Part shown: positions 30,767-33,961 of the stretch, piece after piece | How the letters are laid out: each line of letters opens with the position of its first letter | Numbering within the stretch: position 1 is the stretch's first letter | Origin: Desulfobacteria bacterium | Lineage (GTDB): Bacteria > Desulfobacterota > Desulfobacteria > Desulfobacterales > C00003060 | Assembly (NCBI GenBank): GCA_030145395.1 | Contig: JAQYVR010000087.1 | Coordinates: forward strand, 1 to 33,961 | Length of the DNA stretch: 33,961 nucleotides | Reading direction: 5' to 3' | Position numbers and translations under genes: made by a program | The notes under the pieces: model-generated | Databases searched by the model: none | The model's input: only the letters and a program-made list of their open reading frames with translations | What the model was told of the DNA's origin: nothing

Positions 30767-33700
30767 TCACTTCGAAGCGATTGAGACATCACCACGGCCG
30801 ATCATTTCTTCAAGTTTCCAGTCAACAAGGAGCCTCATTCGTCGATTCTCTTGCTTCTGTCTGAAAACAAGGTGGGAGTTTTCCAAACCGTACTGGAAAA
30901 GATCCCTGGTGACAACAACGTCCTGGCGGCAGTAGTCTGTCAACTTTTGAAAATCGCCCTGCCGAAACCATTCCACGGCCTGGAGCCCGTCGGCTGTTTT
31001 CTCCTGGTTCAAAGTCTCTACAGCAAGATGTGCCAAGGAGAGTCGAAAACCGAGCCGCTTGAAGACATCCTCGAGAATATCAAAAGTCGGAAGTCTTTTC
31101 AGATCCTTGCTTGTATAAGCACTCAGTACTATGTAATCGAACCGTTTTATGTTGAATCCTACAATCAAGTCTGCTTTCTCCAGATGCTCCAGCAGGGCCT
31201 CAATCTGATCTTCATCATAGACCAGAAAACGATTTTCCAAGCTGTCGTAAAGGACGGCCACAGAAACCCTCATCAGGTGTATGTTTTGCCAACCCCCCAC
31301 CTCCTGGGCGAGTTTCTGGGTCTCCAGGTCCAAAAATATGACCCTCGGTTCTTTCTCATCTTCAGCAGTTGACGTTTCTTCGACTATAAACGGCATCGGT
31401 CCGACCTCTTCTGTTTTGGCGAAAACCTGGCTCAGTGGAATATGGCCCAGGAGACCTTCAAGAATCAATAGGGCAGCCTCCTTGTCCAGCGGCTTATTGC
31501 CCGAACCGCACTTGGGCGAATGGACGCAAGATGGGCATCCCTCATCACATTCACAGGTTTTGATCTGGTGCATGGTCTTTTCCAGAAGCTCCAGAATGAT
31601 TTCAAAACCGTGCTGCGCAAGGCCCACGCCGCCGGGGTGGCCATCGTATATGAATATAGCACTCTTCCCAACCTGCGGATGATAAGGATAACAGATCCCT
31701 CCTATATCGTTTCTGTCACAAAGGGCGAAAAGTGGAAACATGCCTATGGCCGCGTGTTCAATAGCATGGATGCCGCCCATGAAATCAAGACCCCTATCCT
31801 CAACGAAATGCTTTAAAGCAGCCTCGATCTCAATCCATAAACCCACGGTCTCAAAGGTCTGGCGAGGCAGATCCAGCGGGAAGACTCCCATTAGCGTTTG
31901 GCCCGGCAGAGCTCTCTTTTCATAACCTGTCACGACTTCCGTGACCTTTAGCTCTCCCTCCCGGACAAGAAACTGTCCTCTGGGTCGGCTCCGTGTGATA
32001 CGGATAATCTCTGTTTCTTTTTCAGTCCGCACACGTGTGAAGTACTGCACGTTTGACCTGTGGGCAAAGATATCCCTTTCTGCCAGCCTCAAATCGTCAA
32101 CCAGGTATTGGCGGGCACGGTGAAGATAGACTGCACCTGGATGACATTCCTTGAAAGCTCTAATACCGTCAACCGTACCGATGGGCTGGCCGGTCTCCTT
32201 TTCCAGGATAGTGAAGCTTTCGCCGGCAGAGCGAATGTTCACCTGAAGCTGGGGCCGGCGTTTTGTGGCATACCATGCGAGCTCTCCCTCCGCAGTTCGA
32301 TGCAACGCCCCCTCCCCTTCCAGTTTTTCAAGATGAAGGGGAAGGTTCTTTGACCAGAATTTCTCGTCGTTCAGCGACAGCGGCATTTCTGCTGCCGCAC
32401 AAGGCAGGTGGGCCTCAATCACATAAGGGTTGTCGGGATCAAGAACAGCGGCCTCGTACGATCTTTCAAAAAAATCATTCGGATGTTTCATGAAATACTG
32501 ATCAAGGGCGTCCGGCTTTGCAATGAGGATCACCATCGATTCTCTTCCAGACCGGCCTACGCGTCCCCCTCTTTGCCAAGTATCTATGATCGTGCCGGGA
32601 TAACCCACAAGCAGACAGATATCGAGATGCCCTATATCAATGCCCATCTCCAGGGCGCTGGTCGATACAACACCGAGCAGCTTTCCGCTGGCCAGCCTCT
32701 GTTCGATCTCTCTTCTTTCCGCAGGCATGAAACCAGCCCGGTATGAACTGATCTTCTTTCGAAGCTTGGGAGACAGCCTGGAAATCCAGACATGAATCAA
32801 TTCAGTTACCTGCCTGGACTGGGTAAAAGCAATGGTTCTGAATCCATGGCGAACACAATGTACAAAGAGCTTGGCCGCAGAAAAATTGGGGCTTGCCACG
32901 GGATTCAGAAACACAAAGTGGTGTCCTGCTTTGGGGGCGCCCGAAGACCGGACGACTTCAAGTTCTTCTTCTATCAGACTTTCGCCAAAGGCCTGCGGAT
33001 TATTCACAGTGGCAGAAAGCAGAATGAATTGGGGGCGGGCGCCGTAATGTTCACAAAGTCTTTTGAGCCGTCGGATCACCTGGTTTACGTGAGAGCCGAA
33101 TATCCCACGATATGTGTGAACCTCGTCTAATATGACGAACGACAGATTTCGAAGTACCTCTTCCCAGCTCTGATGATGGGCCAGAATACCGCAGTGTAAC
33201 ATGTCGGGATTGGTCACCAGGATATGGGGAGGCTCTGTCCGTATTTTCTTGCGCCTGTACGGGCTGGTATCGCCATCATAGATCTCGGCCGAGATCTTTT
33301 TCTGTTCAATCCCCTCAAGCCACGGCCTGAGGGTTTTCACCTGGTCCTGCGCGAGGGCTTTAAGGGGAAAGACATACAGGGCTTTTGTTTCCCTGTTCTT
33401 GAGGGCCTCCTCCAGCACAATGAGGTTGTAGATCAAGCTCTTGCCGCTGGCCGTTGGCGTGGCAACGATCACATTGGATCCCTGCCTCAAATGATTAATC
33501 GCTTCCACTTGATGGGAATAAAGCCTATCAAGGCTGAGACGGCGCATCGTTCTCGCTATGTCATCATGGAACGTTAGTTGGTTGCCATAGACTGGCGGTG
33601 TGGCCGGAAGGTGGCGATGATATACGAACGTCTCACCGAAATCTCGATCGGCTTTAATCGCCTCAATATAATCCGAAAGATTGAAGTTCGGTGCAGGTTC

Positions 33701-33772
33701 GCTAGAATTCTGATAACCCGGGATAGACCGGGATGAATTGGAAGGAGGAATGCCCTCGCTGTTGCGGTTCAA
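30767..33772 (-). CDS. MrfA/YprA-type DEAH helicase fused to a DnaQ-like exonuclease
   Basis: 1001 residues. Helicase motif I is ATPTASGKS (104-112), motif II DEVH (216-219), motif III LLSATV near 252 and motif VI QRGGRVGRSG near 400-409. A DUF1998 region follows, with the zinc cluster Cys740, 742, 746 and 749 (CECDEGCPSC) plus Cys755, as in B. subtilis MrfA, a 3'-5' helicase for mitomycin C repair. Residues ~810-965 add an RNase H-like exonuclease of MrfB/YprB type: FLDLETQ (Asp815, Glu817), GFNIKRFDY (Asp879) and YCRQD (Tyr947, Asp951), a DEDDy set. In B. subtilis these are two separate proteins. The start is a TTG overlapping the upstream TGA, with AAAGG six bases before it. The first residues are encoded within a dispersed repeat (33755-33772). 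Confidence 0.92.
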   Translation of the reverse strand: MNRNSEGIPPSNSSRSIPGYQNSSEPAPNFNLSDYIEAIKADRDFGETFVYHRHLPATPPVYGNQLTFHDDIARTMRRLSLDRLYSHQVEAINHLRQGSNVIVATPTASGKSLIYNLIVLEEALKNRETKALYVFPLKALAQDQVKTLRPWLEGIEQKKISAEIYDGDTSPYRRKKIRTEPPHILVTNPDMLHCGILAHHQSWEEVLRNLSFVILDEVHTYRGIFGSHVNQVIRRLKRLCEHYGARPQFILLSATVNNPQAFGESLIEEELEVVRSSGAPKAGHHFVFLNPVASPNFSAAKLFVHCVRHGFRTIAFTQSRQVTELIHVWISRLSPKLRKKISSYRAGFMPAERREIEQRLASGKLLGVVSTSALEMGIDIGHLDICLLVGYPGTIIDTWQRGGRVGRSGRESMVILIAKPDALDQYFMKHPNDFFERSYEAAVLDPDNPYVIEAHLPCAAAEMPLSLNDEKFWSKNLPLHLEKLEGEGALHRTAEGELAWYATKRRPQLQVNIRSAGESFTILEKETGQPIGTVDGIRAFKECHPGAVYLHRARQYLVDDLRLAERDIFAHRSNVQYFTRVRTEKETEIIRITRSRPRGQFLVREGELKVTEVVTGYEKRALPGQTLMGVFPLDLPRQTFETVGLWIEIEAALKHFVEDRGLDFMGGIHAIEHAAIGMFPLFALCDRNDIGGICYPYHPQVGKSAIFIYDGHPGGVGLAQHGFEIILELLEKTMHQIKTCECDEGCPSCVHSPKCGSGNKPLDKEAALLILEGLLGHIPLSQVFAKTEEVGPMPFIVEETSTAEDEKEPRVIFLDLETQKLAQEVGGWQNIHLMRVSVAVLYDSLENRFLVYDEDQIEALLEHLEKADLIVGFNIKRFDYIVLSAYTSKDLKRLPTFDILEDVFKRLGFRLSLAHLAVETLNQEKTADGLQAVEWFRQGDFQKLTDYCRQDVVVTRDLFQYGLENSHLVFRQKQENRRMRLLVDWKLEEMIGRGDVSIASK
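33755..33772. repeat. Fragment of the ~90-base dispersed repeat (copy 3)
   Basis: CTCGCTGTTGCGGTTCAA is identical to 22875-22892, and similarity continues a few bases to the left. It spans the TTG start and the first codons of the helicase gene on the complement strand. Confidence 0.6.
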
Positions 33773-33961
33773 TGTCGGCCTTTGTCCAACACCTTACGTA
33801 TGGTTGTGGCCAGGTCACGAGACACAAGCGGCTTAATGATGAACTCTCGAATGCCCATGTCCATGGCCTTATCTTTTGTGATCATTTCGCTATATCCTGT
33901 ACAAAGAATAATCGGAATATCTGGCCTTATTCTCATGAGTTCTTTGGCCAACATTCCACCC
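33769..33961 (-). CDS. Response-regulator receiver domain, C-terminal end (partial)
   Basis: The last 63 residues of a protein that enters from beyond the right edge of the window. The sequence GGMLAKELMRIRPDIPIILC, TGYSEMITKD and REFIIKPLVSRDL is the second half of a CheY-like receiver: the conserved Thr in LCTGYS and Lys in IIKPL are visible, while the phosphorylated Asp would lie outside. In Desulfobacterota this type of sequence usually ends a hybrid histidine kinase, but a stand-alone regulator is possible. Its TGA overlaps the TTG of the helicase gene. Confidence 0.88.
   Translation of the reverse strand, partial: GGMLAKELMRIRPDIPIILCTGYSEMITKDKAMDMGIREFIIKPLVSRDLATTIRKVLDKGRH

Follow-up and report, generated by a model that had tools for sequence, protein, structure and literature searches.

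The window analysed here, a 33,961-nucleotide stretch of DNA from a Desulfobacteria bacterium (contig JAQYVR010000087.1 of assembly GCA_030145395.1), carries near one end a single 1001-residue open reading frame (ORF) in which a helicase is followed in frame by an exonuclease (Table 1). The ORF is open throughout and begins with TTG, the only standard start codon ahead of the conserved part of the protein, which starts near residue 30. This TTG overlaps, as TTGA, the stop codon of an upstream ORF that encodes the C-terminal end of a response-regulator receiver protein, an arrangement that hints at translational coupling of the two. The closest relative (L032) has no receiver ORF as its neighbour. 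Besides this receiver-domain ORF, the neighbours within the window, read by eye, are a secreted-type ORF of unknown function and a PilZ-like ORF.

Table 1 Features of the helicase–exonuclease fusion and the adjacent receiver ORF, in window positions.
Feature	Position	Strand	Evidence
Whole fusion ORF, 1001 aa, TTG start	30767..33772	-	open throughout
RecA-like domain 1 (DEAD, residues 86-259; Walker A K111, DEVH 216-219)	32996..33517	-	Pfam PF00270 E 1.3e-34, motif columns
RecA-like domain 2 (Helicase_C, residues 306-409)	32546..32857	-	Pfam PF00271 E 8.5e-15
Winged helix, Hrq1/MrfA type (WHD_HRQ1, residues 444-516)	32225..32443	-	Pfam PF22982 E 4.4e-12
MrfA Zn-binding domain MZB/DUF1998 (residues 671-750)	31523..31762	-	Pfam PF09369 E 5.2e-24
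Cysteine cluster C740, C742, C746, C749, C755	31508..31555	-	invariant in 93/93 homologues
Non-conserved linker (~residues 776-808)	31349..31447	-	highest column entropy inside shared part; pLDDT <50 at 786-805
DEDDy 3'-5' exonuclease domain (~residues 809-985)	30818..31348	-	Pfam PF13482 (RNase_H_2, residues 812-960); model pLDDT 94; fold matches
Exo I acidic residues D815, E817	31322..31330	-	93/93
Exo II D879	31136..31138	-	93/93
Exo III Y947-C-x-x-D951 (DEDDy signature)	30920..30934	-	Y, C, D each 93/93
Response-regulator receiver ORF, C-terminal end	33769..33961	-	stop codon overlaps fusion start

Pfam places DEAD, Helicase_C, WHD_HRQ1, MZB, and RNase_H_2 domains on this one chain, so that both halves of the polypeptide described by an earlier first-pass annotation, a helicase and then an in-frame exonuclease, are matched. 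Conservation was read from an alignment of 93 distinct homologues whose sequence reaches the exonuclease. The Walker A lysine and D216, E217, and H219 are invariant wherever that part of the sequence is present, and the residues that the first-pass annotation had named, both in the cysteine cluster and in the exonuclease active site, were identified correctly and are found in every homologue. Besides the termini, the sole unconserved part of the alignment is the linker between the two halves: between the final cysteine and the exonuclease's first aspartate there are a median of 59 residues, mostly 50–70 and up to 118, with most homologues falling within 47–118. Fused-type open frames of 1153–1210 aa in four genomes (G130, G160, G232, and G253) lie above the usual length, suggesting inserted segments or long linkers.

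Because 93 distinct relatives carry both halves in one frame, the fusion is not an assembly artefact. A search of genome contigs returned 80 loci, most of them spanning both halves with 46–85% identity, from Desulfobacterota as well as from Latescibacterota and Gemmatimonadetes records, and dozens of relatives at 45–87% identity hold the two halves in a single frame. The same one-frame arrangement occurs in chromosome-titled records (L072, L080, and L082) and in single-contig genomes such as G031, G071, G254, and G317. Among the relatives is a cultured one, Desulfoferrobacter suflitae DRH4 (L088). An assembly join or frameshift between the halves, either of which would have undone the first-pass reading, was rejected given these many independent genomes. 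At one locus (L025, contig C4 of genome G049) two frames, covering residues 29–260 and 294–991, take the place of the single one, which points to a frameshift, a sequencing error, or a decaying copy.

In Bacillus subtilis, MrfA and MrfB are separate proteins that act together in mitomycin C repair; mrfAB is reported to be species-specific. The helicase half of the fusion is a YprA/MrfA-family SF2 helicase, with the RecA1/RecA2 core, an Hrq1-type winged helix, and a DUF1998/MZB domain bearing the cysteine cluster. Among solved structures it is closest to B. subtilis MrfA (6znp, E 5.3e-153). In a full-length AlphaFold2 model of the fusion (pLDDT 84.6, pTM 0.82), residues 28–775 align with 6znp over 724 residues, with a Z score of 40.1 and 35% identity. 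The nearest NCBIfam model, TIGR03817 (DECH_helic), scores 733.5 bits, which is under its curated cut-off of 874.1. The fusion and B. subtilis MrfA (PDB 6znp/6znq/6zns) are alike in domain order and Zn domain, but the fusion has an additional C-terminal exonuclease and, in the helicase tree described below, belongs to a branch of its own that lacks MrfB.

Modelled alone, the exonuclease half has a pLDDT of 94.2. Of the folds compared by Foldseek and VIA-align, those that fit best are proofreading domains of the DEDDy type, from archaeal family B polymerases (Z ~15) and from T7 DNA polymerase, and searches of sequence libraries returned RNase_H_2, DNA_pol_A_exo1, DNA_pol_B_exo2, and the phage 'DNA polymerase exonuclease subunit' phrog_403. 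With an RNase H fold that carries D-x-E, D, and Y-x3-D, the domain is a DEDDy member of the DnaQ superfamily. The first-pass annotation had proposed comparing this region with MrfB/YprB and DnaQ profiles and looking in it for an RNase H-like exonuclease with intact acidic residues. The Pfam match and the invariant residues bear out the latter, and of the two profile assignments the DnaQ superfamily holds while the one to MrfB/YprB is at best borderline.

The first-pass annotation called the exonuclease MrfB-type, and this is the part of its reading that falls; a natural fusion of an MrfA/YprA helicase to a DEDD exonuclease stands. B. subtilis MrfB is a DEDDh exonuclease (H258, D262) that ends in a TPR domain (PMC11194089), so the DEDDy motif seen by the annotation itself counts against an MrfB domain. 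The position of the DEDDh histidine, four residues ahead of the last aspartate, is occupied by tyrosine in 93/93 fused exonucleases, whereas the catalytic histidine is invariant in 33/33 MrfB proteins of Desulfobacterota and others. The fused exonuclease has no C-terminal TPR, its chain stopping ~30 residues past the exonuclease fold; the TPR is also missing from some archaeal-type MrfB proteins (L123), which makes its lack a weaker criterion. Neither the fused exonuclease sequence nor its 63-row profile found the solved MrfB structure, 8un9, at E<=10. In contrast, a true MrfB of the same order (L187, genome G026), used as a positive control, matched 8un9 with an E value of 1.7e-26 and with its His-Asn-x-x-Asp motif aligned. 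That 8un9 is not among the structural matches listed for the exonuclease model proves nothing and carries no weight. In profile–profile comparisons, the fused exonuclease matched MrfB only at a borderline E value of 0.0017 (probability 15%), compared with 4.9e-73 for stand-alone ~200-aa exonucleases of Nitrospirota and 2.6e-50 for stand-alone viral exonucleases. The identification of the domain as MrfB was rejected on the combination of the tyrosine, the failure to match 8un9, the profile comparison, and the missing TPR. What the two have in common is that both are DnaQ-superfamily DEDD 3'-5' exonucleases paired with an MrfA-family helicase, MrfB as a separate gene product and the fused domain with a predicted activity. 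By profile–profile comparison MrfB matches another DEDDy RNase_H_2 family of the same order (E 6.5e-18). This family of ~290-aa proteins (L112–L122 and L126–L128) is widespread in the order, carries Y-N-x-x-D, and lies by profile far nearer to MrfB than the fused exonuclease does. An RNase_H_2 Pfam match alone is no basis for naming such fusions 'MrfAB'.

The fused exonuclease forms one family with stand-alone ~200-aa DEDDy exonucleases of viruses (L273–L288) and Nitrospirota (L257–L261), which differ from it in having no helicase attached; the D-[IL]-E-T...GGW and Y-C-x-x-D motifs are common to both. The viral proteins, from IMG/VR contigs, show 24–47% identity, and most have D-I-E-T-G-N...GGW and Y-C-x-x-D. 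Those of Nitrospirota fall into two subgroups, occur in genomes that lack the helicase, and are candidates for the free-living form of the captured domain. Another solo exonuclease, of 219 aa, is encoded at L171:6612-7268 (-) in G267, a 99%-complete genome without such a helicase; it opens with ~30 residues (FVKAVKSDKDL...) similar to those at the N-terminus of the fusion, as an in-frame loss of the helicase might leave. Since complete genomes (5/148 of Nitrospirota, and G267) have the exonuclease without such a helicase, the domain can probably work alone. A second DEDDy exonuclease-like protein, distant in sequence and 257 aa long, is encoded on contig C113 of the window's own genome (L222:847-1617, + strand) and has a close relative in G037 (L140).

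The branching of the helicases bears on how the fusion arose. A quick tree, without bootstrap or an inferred root, was calculated from 61 helicase domains, including that of B. subtilis MrfA taken from the 6znp alignment. All 24 fused rows form one clade (SH-aLRT 95.8), and its sister clade comprises YprA helicases without an exonuclease (L172–L178 and L247–L256), which stop at the Zn domain and come from Nitrospirota and from a few families of Desulfobacterota. Together these are split (SH-aLRT 100) from two MrfB-associated clades: B. subtilis MrfA belongs to the bacterial one, and in the other, of archaeal type, mrfB comes first. An operon of the archaeal type is present in G018, from the window's own genus, where mrfB (DEDDh, no TPR) lies directly upstream of an MrfA-type helicase with an overlap of a few bases (L179:4877-8328, + strand). 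In seven genomes with sister helicases, no exonuclease of the fused family was found at E<=0.001. The single fused clade apart from the MrfB clades, and the sister genomes without the family exonuclease, therefore point to a single fusion event on an MrfB-free line. In the exonuclease tree the G267 copy is nested among fused copies, with a distant outgroup (branch 4.4), unsettled bootstrap values, and the Nitrospirota copies unplaced. The first-pass annotation had argued that the fusion supports direct physical coupling of the two activities, but a physical coupling of MrfA and MrfB does not follow from it, because the exonuclease is not MrfB and the helicase branch is separate from the MrfB-associated helicases. 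From the sequences, the same kind of helicase–exonuclease pairing appears to have arisen more than once.

We surveyed 297 Desulfobacterota genomes, each at least 85% complete, for fused and split arrangements, as the first-pass annotation had suggested. The fusion is present in 91 (~31%), about 20 of which were assigned by open-frame length rather than by a single match spanning both parts. The exonuclease-less sister helicase occurs in 7/297 and another YprA helicase in 38/297. MrfB, as a separate gene, was found in 42/297, namely all 38 genomes with another YprA helicase plus four for which no YprA match is listed, whereas 0/91 of the fused genomes have it (Fisher p 8e-8, uncorrected for descent). 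Because this mutual exclusion follows lineages, it does not independently show that the two do the same job. True MrfB genes, some of them beside MrfA genes in the same phylum, also came out of a scan of 60 near relatives with PF13482. In the Gemmatimonadota/Latescibacterota group about 17/56 genomes carry the fusion, and among 148 Nitrospirota genomes none does, about 18 having the sister helicase and five others the exonuclease alone.

We therefore favour, with reasonable confidence, the reading that this protein is a single-chain helicase–exonuclease in which a YprA/MrfA helicase is joined by a flexible linker to a non-MrfB DEDDy exonuclease, that it goes back to one fusion, and that it likely acts in DNA repair. 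An MrfB-free YprA branch would have captured, once, a stand-alone exonuclease of the kind still found solo in viruses and Nitrospirota, to give the order RecA1, RecA2, winged helix, OB/connector, Zn domain, flexible linker, and small DEDDy 3'-5' exonuclease. The architecture of the protein, its conservation, fold, and family, and its branching are established by the results above. MrfA translocates 3'-5' on single-stranded DNA, and DEDDy enzymes carry out 3'-5' exonucleolysis. From the properties of these families we infer a polarity, a substrate, and a coupling of the two activities: the helicase would load on single-stranded DNA and track 3' to 5', and since such a motor pulls ahead of the 3' end of its strand, the tethered 3'-5' exonuclease could trim that end and remove the strand from behind. 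In this way a stretch of damaged strand could be unwound and removed by one molecule. Where the exonuclease sits relative to the motor is uncertain, because the linker is disordered in the model (pLDDT <50). The helicase branch and the lack of defence features make housekeeping DNA repair the likely role, by analogy with the repair of mitomycin adducts by MrfAB. As for mechanism, Manthei et al. arrived at a comparable view of MrfAB, their model bringing the free 3' end close to the active site of MrfB (PMC11194089).

The two domains might instead not cooperate, with the exonuclease a passenger that acts on substrates of its own (e.g. RNA or short oligonucleotides) and the tether serving only for co-expression. 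The unconserved linker of variable length and the solo exonucleases of Nitrospirota, viruses, and G267 are compatible with such an arrangement, but we consider it unlikely: Desulfobacterota and the Gemmatimonadota/Latescibacterota group have retained the fusion from one ancient event onwards with both active sites invariant, and separation into two genes is unseen, save for one frame break and one helicase-less copy.

Even less probable, and strongly disfavoured, is a true MrfA–MrfB fusion, in which the two genes of an ancestral mrfAB operon became one and the exonuclease then lost its TPR tail and changed its histidine to tyrosine. This history would account for the shared helicase family, for the helicase-first, exonuclease-last order as in bacterial mrfA–mrfB operons, and for the RNase_H_2 match of both exonucleases, and a preprint mentions in passing YprA helicases 'fused to' MrfB/YprB homologues (PMC12458937, in the passages searched). 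However, the uniform DEDDy and DEDDh signatures, the 8un9 match reached only by the local MrfB, and the profile values, which place the domain with the viral exonucleases, all speak against it, as does the position of every MrfB-associated helicase outside the fused clade.

Across 65 loci, there is no conserved operon around the fusion. The recurrent flanking genes, named by eye, encode a ComF-like phosphoribosyltransferase (23), a YkgJ-like cysteine-cluster protein (21), and an RfaE2-like nucleotidyltransferase (18), while the largest neighbour cluster (31) consists of ABC-type ATPases that single linkage brought together. Among the largest clusters, neither a methyltransferase nor BrxHII nor any other defence gene recurs. 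PADLOC returned only generic helicase matches, and none of its models matched the exonuclease. A role in defence is without support, as no PADLOC system fits and the flanks common to the loci are housekeeping genes. An anti-phage function comparable to that of the nuclease-bearing YprA helicases in ARMADA, TALON, or Druantia is thus very doubtful for this protein, even though C-terminal nucleases are common on defence YprA helicases (PMC12458937, in the passages searched) and the exonuclease family includes viral members, for the spread of the fusion, in a third of the phylum, looks vertical and its helicase aligns end to end with MrfA without the long insertions of the defence branch. TALON YprA helicases likewise have a C-terminal RNase H-fold domain, but the passages searched describe that domain as inactivated and within a TOTE-like defence operon (PMC12458937), whereas the fusion keeps all its catalytic residues and showed no operon of that kind.

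The helicase family and the exonuclease superfamily of this protein are known; what sets it apart is the distinct exonuclease family and its separate origin. The searched passages of the preprint that mentions YprA–MrfB fusions hold no description of the DEDDy family, of Desulfobacterota, or of an independent origin (PMC12458937), and our literature search found no report of a separate origin for the fused exonuclease. The chances seem evenly balanced that the protein is a one-piece counterpart of MrfAB, built independently from an MrfB-free YprA helicase and a virus-type DEDDy exonuclease, which stands in for MrfAB across Desulfobacterota and Gemmatimonadota/Latescibacterota as a case of convergent evolution. 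If MrfA-family helicases did gain a 3'-5' exonuclease twice, from two families, then the coupling of the two activities is likely what selection favours, and this double gain would bear on the way in which MrfA and MrfB work together. In a single natural chain the stoichiometry is fixed, which may ease structural and single-molecule study compared with the weakly defined MrfA–MrfB complex.
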